This document shows, one piece after another, positions 6,479-51,853 of a DNA stretch of 61,563 bases. Within the stretch, counting starts at the first letter, position 1. Every line of letters begins with the position of its first letter. The translations under genes and the position numbers were made by a program. Origin of the DNA: Arenibacter latericius DSM 15913. GTDB taxonomy: Bacteria; Bacteroidota; Bacteroidia; Flavobacteriales; Flavobacteriaceae. Below the pieces are notes generated by a model that saw nothing but the letters and a program-made list of their open reading frames with translations, ran no database searches and was not told the origin of the DNA. The stretch covers positions 1 to 61,563 of the forward strand of contig NZ_AUKX01000034.1 of the NCBI RefSeq assembly GCF_000424985.1, given 5' to 3'.

Positions 6479-6607
6479 CTATTTTTTTTTGCCACTACTT
6501 AGAAACACTAGCACTATACCAACTAATGCTACACATACCATAGCAAAGATAGCTATCATCACAATGCCATTATTCCAATTAACCAAGGGTAGAAATCTCA
6601 TCATCAT
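6479..6607 (-). CDS. Small single-span membrane protein, 42 residues
   Basis: Too short for most gene callers. It starts at the outermost of three consecutive ATG codons, with a short head RFLPLVNWNNG, one hydrophobic helix (about residues 15-36) and a terminal SSGKKK before TAG. The Lys tail should stay inside the cell. Upstream on the same strand, TATTTTTG (6639-6632) matches the Bacteroidota -7 box TAnnTTTG, about 25 bases ahead of the start. I have an impression of similar short proteins in other flavobacteria but cannot search. The function is unknown; it sits 303 bases downstream of the MBL-rhodanese gene on the same strand, beyond that gene's terminator. Confidence 0.6.
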   Translation of the reverse strand: MMMRFLPLVNWNNGIVMIAIFAMVCVALVGIVLVFLSSGKKK

Positions 6608-44696: not shown

Positions 44697-47600
44697 CTAT
44701 TTAGTTAAATCCTTGATTCTAATATTTCTAAATGAAAGTTCGGATCCATGACCAAGGAAAGCGATATGCCCTTTCTTTCTTAACAACCCTGGATGATCTT
44801 TTTTATCTAAGGTACCGTTCTTGGTAGCCTCTTTAATATTACCATCCAAAATCACCTGTCCGTTTAGGGTAATCTTTATGTGATCTCCTTTCACGAAAAC
44901 TTCTTGGGAGTTCCATTCCCCAACAGGATTAAGTGCCCCTTGCTTAGCCGCCATGATTCCATAAACAGAACCATGATATTGGTAAGGTTTTAAATTAGCA
45001 TAAATTTCAGCGGTATCATCTAGGATCTGCAACTCCTTACCTACGTATGCTACATCACCAGTTAGAGGAGCGTGAATCCCCAAACCGTTATTAGCTCCTG
45101 GGGTCAGTTTAAAGTCGAACCTGAAAACAAAATCAGAATACTCCTCAACGGTGTATAAATTACCATGTCCTCCTTGTTTTGGACGTACAACCAATTCATT
45201 ATTTTCAACAAAGTAATCTGTCTTATTCCCAGTCCAATGATCTAGTTCTTTTCCATTCAACAAAGATTTAAACCCTTCATTCTTTTCAGCATCGGTCAAT
45301 TGATCATCGCCAGAATTTATTTCCCTTACATAGATATTTCTAAATCCAAGATCTTCACCATGGGCTTGAAGTTCTATAGCCTCCTTAGCAAAGATAGCCT
45401 GCTTACGATCCCAATAGTTTTCTAAGACCACGTTATCTGTTACCAGTACTCCATTTAAATAAACGGTAACACGCTCTCCTACCATTTTAATTCTAAAAGT
45501 ATTCCATTCATCCACAGGATTATCAGCAACAACTAATGGTTTACTCTCATGCTTCTGGTTGTTATATAATCCACCAGAACCAACTTGAGCCCCTACTTTT
45601 ACCAAAGCGGTATCCCAAATCTGAACTTGTGGAGTACCTCTTAGATAAATTCCGGAATCTCCTCCGTTGGTAATCTTCCAATCTACAAGCATTTCAAAAT
45701 CCCCATAGTCTTTAATGGTACAGATATTATTATATCCTTCTCCTTTAAATCCAATTACACCATCTTCTATATACCAGTCTCTCATCATCTGCTCATTAGC
45801 TTTAGCCTGCGCCTCTGCTAATTGTTTCTTAGACATTTTAGAACGGGCAATTGGGTTTTGCACCAAACCTTCCCATCCTGTAAAGTCTTTTCCATTAAAA
45901 ATGGAAACAAAACCTTTTTCATTCGGCATTTTATCTAAAAACTCCTTCACATCAATTTTGATGTACTGGCTATCTGGACCTGTAAGGTTATCTACACTTC
46001 TAGAAACGATATCCCTTACCACTTCTCCACTTAGACCATTCTTGGCTCCAGGAGTTGGTAGTGCAATGGCTATTGCAGCATTAGACGCTGTAGTCAATAA
46101 AGCCTCATCGTCTAGATATTCTGAAACAAAAACTAAAGAAAGGAAGGTCTTAACGTTTTGAGCCGCTCTTAATACCTGCTGTTTTTCCGAAGTACTTTTT
46201 GCCTCGGGCATCAACTTTCTTATTAAAAGTAGTTTTTGATCTGCTGGAACATTAGAACGCACCACTTTAGTAAGGTAATTTGAAAAAGATTTTTTTCTAA
46301 TCTCTCCGTCCTGAGTATTCTTTACAGACTCGTATAAGTATGGAATAGCATCATTATTTTTCCAATTAGATAAAGCATTCAATGCTATTATTCTTTCCTC
46401 ATCATTTCCATTAGACAACTGATCCGAAACCAATTTCAATGCTTTATCACTACTTAACGAAGCCAACACTGGTAACAATTTGGATTTATCAGATGCTGAT
46501 TCGTAAGCTCCGTACAATTCATTAGAATACTTTCCATTCCCGCTATTCACAATATTCAATAGCGCTCTTTGGGTACTCTCAATATGATCGTTATTTTCAG
46601 TTTTATCTATTAGCTCTAATAAAACAGAAAAATCTTTTTCTGAAGCTACAGAGGATAGTGCTTTGTACACAGCACTATTCACTTTGTCACTCTCGTTATC
46701 TAATAGCCCCAAAAGCGTATTAAACTGCCCTTTGGCATCTCTTGCAGCCAAAACATCTACTAACACTACCTTAGCATCATCACCAACAGTTGCCAACTGA
46801 TCTGCCAACAACTTATTATCCTCGGCACTTGCCAATCTCAATAACGTTTCCTCAATTGCTTTATACTCGGAGGAAGAGTTGGCAGTTTTCAAACTATTAA
46901 ATAAAACAGGAAATGCTTTAGCCTTATCTTGATAAGACAATGCTTTAATTCCTGCGGTACGTACCTCGCCATCTTTATCCTTTACTGCTCTTAAAATAAC
47001 TGATTGAAACACGGTTTCATCGTTGTTCTTCTCAAGCATTCTAATAATTAGCGGCTTAGTATCTGTAGAAGCTCTTCTATATTGCTTTGCCCATCTTGCC
47101 AATTCTGCAGAAGAAAGATCTTCACCTGCAGCATCTAAAACAGCGCCTACATAAGCGTTGTCCTTATTTTTAGATTCTTTAAGCAACATTTTAGTAGCAT
47201 TACCACCTTCATTTTCACTCAAAATATGAACTCCTGCAGATCTAAAATGCAGCTGATCTTCGCTTTTACATTTTTTAAGCAACCTTTTAGCCACCAAATT
47301 ACTCATGGTTTTATTCCTCTTTTCTTGCAATTTGTTTCCAAAGTGAATAAAAGCCAAGATACTCTTAGTATCATCTAAATTGTAATTGGATTTAGCAGCC
47401 CAATCCTCTAACAAAGGATAAGAAGCAGGGCTAGCAATATTAGCCAAAGCCATTAATGCTTGCTCTTGTACAATTAAAGACGAAGAGGCTAATGAAGCTT
47501 TTATAACTCCTTCAGCAGGAACATGTTTTAATTCTCCTAAAGTATATGTGAAGTCGGCCAATTTCTCTCCGTCCGCGGTCTTAGCGGCTTCCAAAATAAC

Positions 47601-48098
47601 ATTAGCTGCATTGGTACTTCCTATAGAAGTTAAAGCTGCTAGGGCAGGCTTATACAACTCATCATTTTGAAGGTAGGTGCTTAAAGCCGATACGGATGCA
47701 TCTGTTCCGGTAAAGATAAGTCGATCTATAAGAAAAGTTTTTACCTCTTTATCTGATGCTTTATCCAAAGCTTTTAATATGGCATTCTCCACCACTCCAT
47801 TTTGGATTGTTGGCTGTACTCCTCCATTATAAATTGCCAAACTGTTTACGGCATATCTAGCTTTGGTGTCGTTTCCTGTACCTAAAGGAATCAACATATC
47901 AGTAAATTTCAAAATTCCCTCTTCCCCTAAGCCAATTATCTCTTGCATTAGACGATCGGAATGCCCCAAGTCTTCTGCTGGCAATTGAGCCAAAATATCG
48001 GCTACTTTAGTATCTAGGGTTCTGTTGTCCTGTGCATTAACAACTTGTGTGCTTATAAATAGTAATAGCACACCTATGATCTTATATAAATTATTCAT
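44697..48098 (-). CDS. Exported HEAT-repeat protein with two DUF1080 domains
   Basis: 1133 residues. Signal peptide (1-22, VVNAQ). Residues about 30-700 are an alpha-helical HEAT/ARM solenoid (repeats such as ALSTYLQNDELYKPALAALT and VRTAGIKALSYQDKAKAFPV). Two DUF1080 jelly-rolls follow: about 729-926 (FVSIFNGKDFTGWEG, SGIYLRGTPQVQIWD) and about 941-1130 (FKSLLNGKELDHWTG, NNGLGIHAPLTG). DUF1080 proteins include 3-keto-glycoside hydrolases. The solenoid could be a scaffold for binding substrate or partners. The gene is 21 bases downstream of the Gfo/Idh/MocA gene, so the pair is probably one transcript: oxidation of a sugar followed by cleavage. Confidence 0.88.
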   Translation of the reverse strand: MNNLYKIIGVLLLFISTQVVNAQDNRTLDTKVADILAQLPAEDLGHSDRLMQEIIGLGEEGILKFTDMLIPLGTGNDTKARYAVNSLAIYNGGVQPTIQNGVVENAILKALDKASDKEVKTFLIDRLIFTGTDASVSALSTYLQNDELYKPALAALTSIGSTNAANVILEAAKTADGEKLADFTYTLGELKHVPAEGVIKASLASSSLIVQEQALMALANIASPASYPLLEDWAAKSNYNLDDTKSILAFIHFGNKLQEKRNKTMSNLVAKRLLKKCKSEDQLHFRSAGVHILSENEGGNATKMLLKESKNKDNAYVGAVLDAAGEDLSSAELARWAKQYRRASTDTKPLIIRMLEKNNDETVFQSVILRAVKDKDGEVRTAGIKALSYQDKAKAFPVLFNSLKTANSSSEYKAIEETLLRLASAEDNKLLADQLATVGDDAKVVLVDVLAARDAKGQFNTLLGLLDNESDKVNSAVYKALSSVASEKDFSVLLELIDKTENNDHIESTQRALLNIVNSGNGKYSNELYGAYESASDKSKLLPVLASLSSDKALKLVSDQLSNGNDEERIIALNALSNWKNNDAIPYLYESVKNTQDGEIRKKSFSNYLTKVVRSNVPADQKLLLIRKLMPEAKSTSEKQQVLRAAQNVKTFLSLVFVSEYLDDEALLTTASNAAIAIALPTPGAKNGLSGEVVRDIVSRSVDNLTGPDSQYIKIDVKEFLDKMPNEKGFVSIFNGKDFTGWEGLVQNPIARSKMSKKQLAEAQAKANEQMMRDWYIEDGVIGFKGEGYNNICTIKDYGDFEMLVDWKITNGGDSGIYLRGTPQVQIWDTALVKVGAQVGSGGLYNNQKHESKPLVVADNPVDEWNTFRIKMVGERVTVYLNGVLVTDNVVLENYWDRKQAIFAKEAIELQAHGEDLGFRNIYVREINSGDDQLTDAEKNEGFKSLLNGKELDHWTGNKTDYFVENNELVVRPKQGGHGNLYTVEEYSDFVFRFDFKLTPGANNGLGIHAPLTGDVAYVGKELQILDDTAEIYANLKPYQYHGSVYGIMAAKQGALNPVGEWNSQEVFVKGDHIKITLNGQVILDGNIKEATKNGTLDKKDHPGLLRKKGHIAFLGHGSELSFRNIRIKDLTK

Positions 48099-48119: not shown

Positions 48120-49388
48120 TTAATAAGCCCAAGAGGTTCTCATTGGTTGATTGATCAGTCTATTTGCTTCCTCATCATTTATAAACTCCTGTTTAACAGG
48201 ATCAAATTCTAAGGTTCTTCCTAAACGGAGTGCAACAAGTCCCATGTTTACAACGGTACAAGACCTATGTCCATTCTCCTCATTTAAGGCAAATTTCTTT
48301 CTAGTTTTTACTGATTCAGAAAAAACGGTAATCTGCTCCTCTGGGTCGGGGATACTATTGATTAAGCCCTCGATATTTGGGATAGTGGATTTAAAGCCAT
48401 TATATATCTTTCCATTTGGACCTTCAATATAAGCTGCATCCTTATCCTTGTTTTCACCGTCTAAGATAATCTGACATCCATCGGCATAGGTATAAACTAC
48501 TTTTCTCCAAGTACCAATAGCATCATGGTGTTGCTCTGGAGCATCTACCTCAACCTTTACTGGACTAGTATTATCTTTTCCTAGGAAGTATTGTACTGGA
48601 TCTATATAGTGCTGCCCCATATCTCCTAATCCTCCTCCATCATAATCCCAATACCCTCTAAAGGTACCGTGAACTCTATGTGGGTGATAAGGCTTTTCAG
48701 GAGCTGGCCCTAACCACATATTATAATCAAGCTCCGATGGTACCGGTTGTGGTGTTAAGTTTTCCTTTCCTACCCAGTAAAATTTCCAGTTAAAACCAGT
48801 AACCCCACTAATAGTAACTTTTAAAGGCCATCCTAACGCCCCACTATCTACTACTTTCTTTAATTTTCTAACAGGAGTTCCCATTCCGTAAAAGTTATCC
48901 TTAAAACGGAACCAGGTATTTAAACGGAACATTCTTCCGTGTTGCTGCATTGCTTCAACCACCTTTTTCCCTTCACCAATGGTTCTGGTCATAGGCTTCT
49001 CACACCAAACATCTTTACCGGCTTCGGCAGCCATAATAGACATTAATCCATGCCAATGTGGTGGTGTAGCAATATGGACAATATCAATATCTGGTCTTTG
49101 TAACACTTCTCGGAAATCACGATAACCTGTTACACCACTTCCCACTTTTTTAAGGGTATTTGCCAAGTGATTTGCATCAGCATCACAAATTGCTAAGAGT
49201 TTTGTACCCTCATAAGTTAAATGGCCTTGTCCCATTCCACCTACTCCAATAACGGCTTTAGTTAATTGGTCACTGGGAGCAATAAAATTAGTTCCCCCCA
49301 TCACATGTCTTGGAATAATACTGATCCCTGCAGCTGCCACAATGGATTTTCTTACGAAATCCCTACGGCTTGTTGAATTTTTCTTCAT
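48120..49388 (-). CDS. Tat-exported Gfo/Idh/MocA-family oxidoreductase
   Basis: 422 residues with a twin-arginine signal (TSRRDFVRKSIVAAAGISII). The NAD-binding fold follows (AVIGVGGMGQGHL, LAICDADANHL, DIVHIATPPHWHGLMSIMAA, DVWCEKPMTRTIGEGKKV). EKP with its Lys is the catalytic motif. The C-terminal domain is rich in aromatic residues (GTFRGYWDYDGGGLGDMGQH). Exported, tightly cofactor-bound relatives oxidise glycosides, commonly at C3. It directly precedes the HEAT/DUF1080 gene and follows the LamG regulator gene (158-base gap) on the same strand. Confidence 0.92.
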   Translation of the reverse strand: MKKNSTSRRDFVRKSIVAAAGISIIPRHVMGGTNFIAPSDQLTKAVIGVGGMGQGHLTYEGTKLLAICDADANHLANTLKKVGSGVTGYRDFREVLQRPDIDIVHIATPPHWHGLMSIMAAEAGKDVWCEKPMTRTIGEGKKVVEAMQQHGRMFRLNTWFRFKDNFYGMGTPVRKLKKVVDSGALGWPLKVTISGVTGFNWKFYWVGKENLTPQPVPSELDYNMWLGPAPEKPYHPHRVHGTFRGYWDYDGGGLGDMGQHYIDPVQYFLGKDNTSPVKVEVDAPEQHHDAIGTWRKVVYTYADGCQIILDGENKDKDAAYIEGPNGKIYNGFKSTIPNIEGLINSIPDPEEQITVFSESVKTRKKFALNEENGHRSCTVVNMGLVALRLGRTLEFDPVKQEFINDEEANRLINQPMRTSWAY

Positions 49389-49546
49389 CGATTCCTATAC
49401 TATTTCTATTAATTATATGAATAAGTGCTATTTACTTGCTCAAAGAAACAGCACAGTGCGTAAAAATAGGGGTAATGTTTGGGGTAATATTCTTGAAATA
49501 TGCAAAATACCTGTTAAAGTTATCCTCTAAATCAAGTTTAGTAATT

Positions 49547-51853
49547 TCAACTACCAATTATTTCCTCAAATTTTATGGGGTACTCTTCTCCATAAAGTTT
49601 ATGGTATAGCTTGATGAATTTGTCATAGGAAGCATGAGCTGTACTTAGGTTTCCTTGCTTTATCAATATTTTTAATCTTAGTTGCAAGGCGGTTTCGTTA
49701 AGATCATCATAGATGTACATTACCGAAACAAGATCTTGAAGTAGAGAAAGATGCTCCTCGAGATTTAGGGTTGATGCTACTTTCTGACAGAGCTCCAATA
49801 TATCATTACTCAGTTTTTCTACAAATGGATCTAACCAAGCGTCCTCTATATTTGCCAAAAATCGCTCTTCTTTAAGTATACCAAATAAGATAGGTAATCC
49901 TTTTTCCATCTGTTCTACCCCAATGTTTACTTTACCGAAGCGATCCAAGTACTGCAAAACCACTTGATACTCACAATAACAATCATCCGTAATTTCTAGA
50001 AACCACAGTTTATCTCTAAAAACCAACTGAATTGTATTAGATGCCGATAAAATAGATCTAAGATTTTGAATATTGGTACCTCTTGTGTTTTTTGCACCGC
50101 TAGGAGTCATGCCAGGCCAGAGAAATTCGGTTAGTTTTTTACTACTAATCCCTTTCTTATCCCCTACACTATGCAATAACATTACAAGGAACAGCTGTTT
50201 TAGTTTAGGGGAGAGCTTCTTAGATAGATCGGTTCCATCCGCAACAATTATTGAAAGCGAGCCAAAGCATAGAATTTTCTCTTGATAACTAGCCTCTTCT
50301 TGTTCTAAAATAGCGCTCTCCTCCTCTAAAGTCTTGGTAACCCCTATAGTAGCAAGGTCATTTGGTTCTCTTTCCCTTCTAAAATACAGGAACAATAAAA
50401 ATCCTCCCACCGCCAATATTGTCGGGATAATAAAAATAGCCATCCCAAGTGATTCTTCTGGTGAGACATCTAAAAACTCATCTTGTATCTCATCAGAATT
50501 TAGCTCTCTATTCCAAATCTTGATATGATCTATATAGCCCACAAAAAATTCTTGCCATAAATTACTTCCAACCACCAAATTATAATCCGAAGTATCGTAG
50601 TCCTCTATTAATTGGATTTTATCCGTTTGCACCCCGTTAATAAAGAATGAAAGGTCCCCATTCAATTTAGAATGAACCAAAGCCACATGAGTCCATTGAT
50701 TTATAGGAACAGGTGAAGATCGCGATATATAATCTTTAATATCGGCCATGGTAAACGTAAGAAAACCATCGTGTAATTTTAATACAAAGTTTTCACCCTT
50801 TCCTAAAATGCTATTGTTTTTACCAAGAACCGTGGGCTTTATCCAAGCCCCTATTGCAAAACTACTTTGCAAAGCCATTCTACTATCTAACCCCGCATCT
50901 ACATAGGCTCCATCATTAAAATAGCCAACTTTTCCCCGGTTTCTATCCTCAAATAAATCGACCTTATTCACAATTAGCTCCCTATTATTTTTTCGGATGT
51001 TGTTTTTAATAGTTGGATTAAATGAAAAATAATCTGTGAGCCCGTATTCAGGATCTAAGGGAAAACCAACAAACTCCTTTAAGTTCCCCATATTATCACC
51101 TGTAGTACGAATTATATCAGGAGAAAAATAAAATCCAGCCTTATGAGGAATAAACACAGGTAATTCTCCTTTTGAAAGCATTGGAAAACTAAAGTTCCCA
51201 TTTACCTTAAGATTTTTATGATTTTTAAATCCTACCTTACCTAGTAAGCGACTTTTAGATTTTACGGTTCCAAAAACTCGCTTTATCTGGTTAAGCTCTT
51301 GAACTATACTATCTGCAAACAAAAAGTTCTGTGGATCTACTTGAATAAAATTAGGCACTTTCCCTGTTGCCTTCCAGAATTTTACAAAAACACTATCCGG
51401 AACAAACTTCTTATCCTCTAGAGGTACTAAAGTTAACTCCCTTTCTGGTGTAATGTATAAGGAATCCTTTACTGAAGTAATTTTCTCCCTTAAGATGGTA
51501 TCTATCACCTTCAAGGGAACAGTTTGGTTTGAATTTTCAAGAAGGATGCCCCCATTAAGTTCTCCTTCTCCTACAATTAATATAGGATTCTTTTTTGCCC
51601 CCAAGCTTTTAAGTATTGACAGGTATTCCTCCCTGTATTGCGTAATACTAATGGCTAATGGAGCTTCTCCATGGGTTAACGCAGATAAATTAGAAGTGTT
51701 TAGTTTATCGATGTCAACTAAAACATATGACTGCAATCTAATCTTCCATTTATCCTCTTCTGAAAGGTTGGGGAATTCTTGAGCCCATCCCTTTCCCATG
51801 AAGTGAAAGAATAATAGAAAGTAAGTGAATAAAAGTATTGATCTTTTAGACAA
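49547..51853 (-). CDS. Transmembrane one-component regulator: LamG sensor plus SARP/BTAD-like DNA-binding half
   Basis: 768 residues, TTG start at 51853 needed to include the signal peptide (about 1-25, GKGWAQ). 26-300 is an exported region I do not recognise. 310-452 is a LamG/concanavalin-like domain (FAIGAWIKPTVLGKNNSILG, WTHVALVHSKLNGDLSFFIN, VGYIDHIKIWNRELNSDEI). 469-491 is one transmembrane helix (MAIFIIPTILAVGGFLLFLY), followed by Arg-rich RREREP. 527-622 resembles the winged helix of SARP regulators (KLTEFLWPGMTPSGAKNTRG, then IQNLRSIL), and 625-755 a BTAD-like helical region. It probably binds a glycan outside and controls genes inside without a phosphorelay. The Gfo/Idh and DUF1080 genes downstream are the obvious targets. 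Confidence 0.75.
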   Translation of the reverse strand: MSKRSILLFTYFLLFFHFMGKGWAQEFPNLSEEDKWKIRLQSYVLVDIDKLNTSNLSALTHGEAPLAISITQYREEYLSILKSLGAKKNPILIVGEGELNGGILLENSNQTVPLKVIDTILREKITSVKDSLYITPERELTLVPLEDKKFVPDSVFVKFWKATGKVPNFIQVDPQNFLFADSIVQELNQIKRVFGTVKSKSRLLGKVGFKNHKNLKVNGNFSFPMLSKGELPVFIPHKAGFYFSPDIIRTTGDNMGNLKEFVGFPLDPEYGLTDYFSFNPTIKNNIRKNNRELIVNKVDLFEDRNRGKVGYFNDGAYVDAGLDSRMALQSSFAIGAWIKPTVLGKNNSILGKGENFVLKLHDGFLTFTMADIKDYISRSSPVPINQWTHVALVHSKLNGDLSFFINGVQTDKIQLIEDYDTSDYNLVVGSNLWQEFFVGYIDHIKIWNRELNSDEIQDEFLDVSPEESLGMAIFIIPTILAVGGFLLFLYFRREREPNDLATIGVTKTLEEESAILEQEEASYQEKILCFGSLSIIVADGTDLSKKLSPKLKQLFLVMLLHSVGDKKGISSKKLTEFLWPGMTPSGAKNTRGTNIQNLRSILSASNTIQLVFRDKLWFLEITDDCYCEYQVVLQYLDRFGKVNIGVEQMEKGLPILFGILKEERFLANIEDAWLDPFVEKLSNDILELCQKVASTLNLEEHLSLLQDLVSVMYIYDDLNETALQLRLKILIKQGNLSTAHASYDKFIKLYHKLYGEEYPIKFEEIIGS

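Follow-up and report, generated by a model that had tools for sequence, protein, structure and literature searches.

The protein encoded at positions 49547-51853 (minus strand) of a 61,563-nucleotide stretch of Arenibacter latericius DSM 15913 (contig NZ_AUKX01000034.1; the whole stretch is hereafter called the window) is likely to be a one-component transmembrane activator with a SARP-like cytoplasmic half. It would sense a periplasmic glycoside-related signal and switch on the adjacent operon of a Gfo/Idh-type oxidoreductase and a DUF1080 protein, which is putatively involved in 3-keto-glycoside metabolism. The regulator has 768 amino acids and is composed of an exported N-terminus, a LamG domain, one transmembrane helix and the SARP-like half. 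With somewhat less confidence, we also propose that it belongs to a widespread Bacteroidota family of membrane-spanning SARP-type one-component regulators. In this family the heads would be interchangeable in front of one helix and a SARP-like unit, a head being either a kelch-type propeller or a barrel-like region together with LamG. The unit would read repeats spaced by 12 bp that lie 3' of its own gene and 8-9 nt before the -7 box of the target. Since the half-site varies with the regulator class, the glycan target of a regulator could be read from it as from a code. All features of the window described below are on the minus strand.

Results

The cytoplasmic half resembles a SARP unit

The cytoplasmic half consists of an OmpR/SARP-type winged helix (residues 523-622; 49988-50287) with the recognition region LWPG...AKNTRGTNIQNLR, and a BTAD-like all-helical half (residues 623-768; 49550-49987). 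The predicted structure of residues 516-768 had a pLDDT of 91.2 and a pTM of 0.86, and in Foldseek and VIA-align comparisons it matched AfsR and EmbR across both halves. This bears out the preliminary description of the gene, made from the sequence alone, which had placed a winged helix followed by BTAD-like helices inside the cell. Further fold matches of the winged helix were OmpR-type proteins, ToxR and TcpP. The module thus has an OmpR-type winged helix and an all-helical BTA(D) domain in one unit.

The SARP likeness was detected by fold comparison only. In Pfam, BTAD (PF03704) matched residues 665-748 at E 0.0084 with 16.9 bits, below the cutoff of 22.1; no DNA-binding family was found in the regulator at E ≤ 1, and beyond Laminin_G_3 and BTAD there was no match. 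Among 15 module sequences, 5 matched BTAD at E ≤ 1. A profile of the module, searched against sequences of solved structures, found no SARP, and neither AfsR nor EmbR appeared at E ≤ 10. Because the score stays under the family cutoff and 5 of the 15 modules matched at this threshold, we call the module SARP-like. The profile searches suggested in the preliminary description confirmed Laminin_G_3 above its cutoff but brought BTAD only below its own, and no DNA-binding family.

Eight residues of the winged helix (W579, K588, N589, T590, R591, G592, T593 and R599) were invariant in the alignment of 18 orthologues. With the register anchored on W74/P79 of AfsR, the DNA-contact residues W, P, T88 and R94 of AfsR are kept in the regulator.

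The exported half and its topology

The signal peptide (residues 1-25; 51779-51853) is predicted from a hydrophobic N-terminus whose terminal AQ is kept in most orthologues, with Q25 in all 18 rows of the alignment. It is followed by an exported region without an assigned family (residues 26-312; 50918-51778), which is conserved at about 195-290, and by the ConA-like LamG domain (Laminin_G_3; residues 315-457; 50483-50911; Pfam E 7.7e-23, 81.7 bits against a cutoff of 27.6). A whole-genome scan with hidden Markov models gave a match at the same place, and phmmer aligned the LamG region to an arabinanase chain (5hon) at E 4.6e-6. Carbohydrate binding is described for some LamG3 domains (PMC11216935). 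The single transmembrane helix (residues 471-489; 50387-50443) has a mean hydropathy of 2.54 and is followed by RRERE. The exported part between the signal peptide and this helix comprises about 440 residues. Among 68 distinct homologues of the module (see below), a helix lay within 90 residues before the module in 61, and its following side was the more basic in 61 of 61; the linker from helix to module was 3-56 residues long in these 61 cases. Architecture, topology trend and fold were thus computed directly. The signal peptide and the single helix of the preliminary description hold, the latter with the positive-inside trend in all 61 homologues; its LamG domain was also right, though the boundaries (310-452) have to be moved slightly to the right.

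Sub-cutoff PI-PLC-X matches (E 0.0013-0.045) were observed in the N-terminal 316-326 residues of the homologues at loci L110, L115, L117 and L118. They hint that the unassigned exported region may descend from a phospholipase-C-like barrel and be shortened in the window protein.

The start codon is TTG (51851-51853), the earliest possible start of this open reading frame (ORF), since the first ATG, GTG or TTG was taken in ORF calling. Of the 12 orthologues compared, 11 share this codon at the corresponding position and L034 has ATG. The TTG may be a deliberately weak start; given the first-codon calling, the evidence for this is weak.

A predicted operator lies between the regulator and its neighbour

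A direct repeat, TTACCCC-N5-TTACCCC, was first seen between the regulator gene and the Gfo/Idh gene when that stretch was compared in distant species. The full site of the window is TTACCCC-N5-TTACCCC-N5-TTACGCA with a 12-bp period (49457-49487), and its predicted operator repeats are TTACCCC at 49481-49487, TTACCCC at 49469-49475 and TTACGCA at 49457-49463. Eight nucleotides after repeat 3 lies a predicted -7 box, TTTCTTTG (49441-49448), which resembles TAnnTTTG with one mismatch; TAnnTTTG is described as the flavobacterial -7 box consensus (PMC9723704).

The site was tested by an exact-pair genome count, a matrix scan and a motif-free count of repeat lags. In the genome of 4,478,801 bases, the two-copy site has a single exact occurrence. 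A matrix built from 14 Arenibacter sites was scanned over whole non-Arenibacter loci, and its best match lay 18-384 nt 3' of the regulator and on its strand in 15 of the 15 c1 loci (c1 being the main cluster of Gfo/Idh-fold neighbours, see below). The motif-free count found exact heptamer repeats with a lag of 12 within 160 nt 3' of the gene in 35 of 45 LamG-type genes (18/18 in Arenibacter and 17/27 in others), and any other lag from 9 to 24 in the same stretch was found in at most 3 loci. Autoregulation was considered and rejected: none of the 45 LamG-type genes had an exact lag-12 repeat in the upstream 160 nt.

Among the 23 non-Arenibacter LamG-type loci with a site, a T[AT]NNTTT[GA] octamer followed repeat 3 in 21, at 8 nt (14 loci) or 9 nt (7 loci); L112 and L122 had no -7-like octamer at 8-9 nt. 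The signal was weaker for the 23 kelch-type genes, in which exact heptamer repeats had lag 12 in 5, lag 24 in 4 and lag 11 in 3, and lag-12 repeats of at least 6/7 identity were found in 10. A consensus scan found no repeat within 460 nt 3' of the kelch-type genes at L100, L103, L104, L105, L111, L123, L128, L133 and L136-L138, and weak repeats only at L131, L134 and L135. The half-site differs by class: TTACCCC in c1 loci, TTCACCC or TTCCCCC in GH109-type loci, and TTAACCC in the kelch-type loci L125, L126, L129, L130 and L132. The four consensus half-sites were picked after viewing the data, so these tables are descriptive.

The regulator, the site and the Gfo/Idh gene occur together

An orthologue of the Gfo/Idh protein (E ≤ 1e-150) was present in 15 of 397 sampled Flavobacteriaceae genomes. 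The module was found in 13 of these 15 genomes and in 15 of the 382 others, and in all 13 the repeat lay beside it (10 exact, 3 with one mismatch). In G367 the Gfo/Idh orthologue and the repeat are present and the stretch upstream is partly masked. In G169 the Gfo/Idh orthologue follows apparent SusC/SusD genes; no module match was found there, and no TTACCCC-N5-[TG]TACCCC repeat in 18 kb. Repeat, repeat spacing and the co-occurrence of repeat and regulator were also computed directly.

Exact sites numbered 28 in 26 of the 397 genomes; 13 of them adjoin a module gene and 14 have a Gfo/Idh-type gene within 1.5 kb. The exact sites away from Gfo/Idh genes are probably due to chance. At L191, an identical 19-mer, TTACCCCTATTTTTACCCC, occurs at 6507 and 16152, about 9.6 kb apart. 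The two copies flank a region containing a 430-aa ORF whose product, judged by eye, resembles a tyrosine recombinase; they may be the attachment repeats of some integrated element and have nothing to do with the operator.

Neighbouring genes

The gene next to the regulator (48120-49388) encodes a predicted target, an exported Gfo/Idh-type oxidoreductase (Pfam GFO_IDH_MocA_C2, 490.8 bits) with a twin-arginine-like N-terminus. It scored 159.8 bits against the NCBIfam BT_2158 equivalog, far under the cutoff of 750. The second predicted target (44697-48098) follows the Gfo/Idh gene at a distance of 21 nt; according to Pfam, its product combines HEAT repeats with two DUF1080 (3keto-disac_hyd) domains. 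The co-directional sugar oxidoreductase and double DUF1080 protein named in the preliminary description are thereby confirmed. Two separate short DUF1080-type genes stand in the divergent loci L102, L106, L119 and L121, where the window has HEAT and two DUF1080 domains in one protein.

A Gfo/Idh-fold gene came next on the same strand for 40 of 45 distinct LamG-type genes, and for 22 of 27 when Arenibacter was left out; for the remaining genes of these loci the figure was 3 of 442. The 40 neighbours fall into cluster c1 (33) and cluster c11 (7), of which one member was scanned and was GH109-type. The link between regulator and Gfo/Idh gene persists in differing surroundings (L041, L045, L094, L096-L099, L109 and L116). 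Since these surroundings vary from genus to genus, the adjacency is not explained by common descent of a single long block. In most c1 loci DUF1080 genes stand behind the Gfo/Idh gene, and five c1 loci also have genes of the GMC oxidoreductase type and of the gluconate 2-dehydrogenase subunit 3 type. This gene content fits the 3-keto-glycoside chemistry of BT2157/BT2158. The kelch-type heads have no constant Gfo/Idh-DUF1080 neighbourhood; they are found in other loci, several of them near SusC/SusD-type pairs, GH92 or other putative glycan genes. The survey proposed in the preliminary description, whether homologues always neighbour such genes, is thus answered nearly in the affirmative for the LamG type, counting its 7 GH109-type cases, but not for the kelch type. 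Some Arenibacter relatives (L136-L138) have a kelch-headed paralogue, arranged tail to tail with a GH92-type gene and a locus of the SusC/SusD type.

Orthologues and a family with exchangeable heads

All 17 other genomes searched within the genus had an orthologue, with identities of 50-75%. The match was nearly end to end in 16; in G012 it covered residues 137-767 only and lay at a contig end. Outside the genus, 9 of 42 genomes in the orthologue search gave a match, 8 to LamG alone and one, in G035, along almost the full length. Orthologues include those of Maribacter arcticus (L041) and an uncultured Flavobacteriaceae bacterium (L045).

The module profile matched in 28 of the 397 Flavobacteriaceae genomes and in 14 of 395 sampled genomes of the phylum (own genome counted in both), 3 of the latter matches being too weak to trust (G445, G586 and G689; E 3.5e-8 to 2.8e-5; loci L086-L088). 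When these, a 434-aa fragment in G210 and second copies of identical proteins were excluded from the counts, 68 distinct module proteins remained. N-terminal BLAST clustering gave LamG and kelch as the main head types, with 45 LamG-type proteins (18 of Arenibacter, 27 of others) and 23 kelch-type proteins. In a Pfam scan of 20 family proteins, Laminin_G_3 was above the cutoff in 12 and kelch-type matches were found in 6, of which 4 were above a cutoff and those at L123 and L131 below; no head domain was found at E ≤ 0.01 at L132 and L134.

At L132 (5849-9573), the gene of a membrane head that clusters N-terminally with the kelch type precedes that of a 271-aa module lacking a transmembrane helix, and between the two genes are three exact TTAACCC copies at a 12-bp period, preceded by TTAATCC. 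At L134 (8325-12819) and L135 (7363-11857), two module-bearing membrane proteins are encoded in tandem on one strand, with the called ORFs overlapping, which hints at regulators that pair.

Discussion

How the regulator may act can be proposed as follows. The N-terminal region and LamG would lie in the periplasm, the same compartment as the exported Gfo/Idh and DUF1080 proteins, and would detect a glycoside or its breakdown product; the glycan ligand is the weakest step of the proposal. The signal would pass through the one helix to the SARP-like unit, with its OmpR-type winged helix and BTAD-like helices, which would act on DNA from the membrane. Two or three such units may bind side by side on the three direct repeats, at about -51 to -21 if the -7 box is taken to span -12 to -5. 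RNA polymerase would thereby be recruited to this box and the Gfo/Idh-DUF1080 operon turned on. AfsR is described as binding from -19 to -40, and SARP promoters as having direct repeats with a period of 11 or 22 bp, the 3' copy being 8 bp from the -10 element (PMC10936776). Because the repeat positions overlap those of AfsR, we favour activation rather than repression.

Several observations weigh against this proposal. The period of 12 bp differs from that of SARP promoters. In the register given above, the AfsR contacts R87, R92 and K95 are not kept, P584 varies among orthologues, and T593 is not kept in several kelch-type modules. The Gfo/Idh neighbour is absent for 5 of the 45 LamG-type genes, and the loci are related by descent and hence are not independent trials. 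The site is absent or weak at L101, L120, L122 and L124 and was not found for about half of the kelch-type heads; in the GH109-type loci the TTACCCC matrix had its best match at the expected place in 1 of 7 (L112), and TTCACCC or TTCCCCC repeats were found instead. When one mismatch was allowed, the genome had 2 sites and the backwards control pattern 3. No Gfo/Idh gene lies within 1.5 kb of half of the 28 exact sites, and the control pattern matches more of the 397 genomes than the real pattern does. As the control is the commoner, it is the location of the site, not its raw number, that supports it. The other one-mismatch site of the genome, TTACCCCTCAAATTCCCCC, is on another contig (L193).

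The same regulator and site might be used in a different manner, with the SARP half freed by regulated proteolysis after ligand sensing and acting as a soluble activator. The unanchored 271-aa module beside a membrane head at L132 suggests that the module can exist without the membrane, and the variable linker would also be consistent with release. However, no protease was found among the subset of neighbour proteins annotated, and CadC, which has comparable parts, is described as binding its promoter while transmembrane (PMC5430869); we consider release unlikely. It is improbable that the regulator is instead a repressor of the Gfo/Idh operon that is lifted by the ligand. The predicted site covers the upstream region of the promoter, where a bound protein could also block the polymerase, but the repeat stops 8-9 nt short of the -7 box and does not overlap it, and AfsR is described as activating through contacts with sigma region 4 (PMC10936776).

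The pairing of operator and regulator is itself a prediction, and G367 has the repeat where the expected regulator stretch is unreadable. Another factor might thus read the repeat, while the LamG-SARP protein has a different job and is adjacent only through a shared glycan-utilisation locus. We give this a very small chance, since the repeat tracks the regulator, standing directly 3' of it in 35 of the 45 LamG-type genes, and the half-site changes with the regulator class. G169, with the Gfo/Idh orthologue and no module, had no repeat in the scan described above. At L095/L192, moreover, no Gfo/Idh gene follows the regulator, yet the repeat, with one base changed, still precedes a DUF1080 gene. 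The last alternative, that the cytoplasmic half no longer binds DNA and serves as a protein-interaction (BTAD/TPR-like) arm, would agree with the Pfam results, in which no DNA-binding family is called and BTAD stays under its cutoff. The fold match extends over the winged helix, though, and the eight invariant residues lie in it; this alternative is the least probable. We prefer a membrane-bound activator that would bind the repeats through its SARP-like unit.

Each half of the regulator is known; the combination appears to be new, and the predicted operator site is added here. The regulator has an exported sensor, a single transmembrane helix and an OmpR-type domain in one chain, in the reverse of the domain order of CadC and ToxR. 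Its DNA-binding half is C-terminal, behind a signal peptide, and it has an extra BTAD-like half and a LamG ectodomain. With the ToxR-like receptors (CadC, ToxR and TcpP) it shares the periplasmic sensor, the single helix and the OmpR-type DNA-binding domain in one chain without phosphorelay, as these receptors are described (PMC5430869, PMC10269533). It differs from the SARP unit of AfsR and from EmbR, to which it has about 16% identity over the structural alignment, in that it is from Bacteroidota, spans the membrane and has an exported sensor ahead of the SARP-like unit. Like the hybrid two-component systems described for Bacteroides glycan loci (PMC11253607, PMC10269533), it is one membrane protein that may sense glycans and control glycan-utilisation genes. 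Unlike them, it had no histidine kinase, receiver or AraC domain in Pfam at E ≤ 1, which agrees with the earlier view of a phosphorelay-free regulator in one polypeptide. A 2023 survey of transmembrane regulators describes Bacteroidota as rich in them, and the words SARP and LamG are absent from its main text (PMC10269533). No LamG- or kelch-headed membrane SARP was found in the literature among the matches listed, most subscription papers being outside reach. BT2158 is described as a periplasmic glycoside 3-dehydrogenase (PMC11300592) and BT2157 as a DUF1080 3-ketotrehalose hydrolase (PMC9007349). The predicted target genes are of the same kinds, and they differ in that the hydrolase here combines HEAT repeats with two DUF1080 domains and the Gfo/Idh protein is far below the BT_2158 cutoff.

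In conclusion, the window encodes a probable transmembrane SARP-like activator next to its predicted operator and target operon. Most descriptions of glycan control in Bacteroidota concern hybrid two-component systems, sigma/anti-sigma pairs and SusR-like proteins. If the proposal is true, these are joined by a phosphorelay-free class of regulators, one that profile-based surveys could miss, as Pfam assigned no DNA-binding family to the regulator. A dedicated sensor for the 3-keto-glycoside route is suggested as well, and the promoter geometry of SARPs would occur at a flavobacterial -7 promoter, far from actinobacteria. Since the predicted site of the LamG class has a fixed place and spacing, the target of each regulator would be predictable from sequence.

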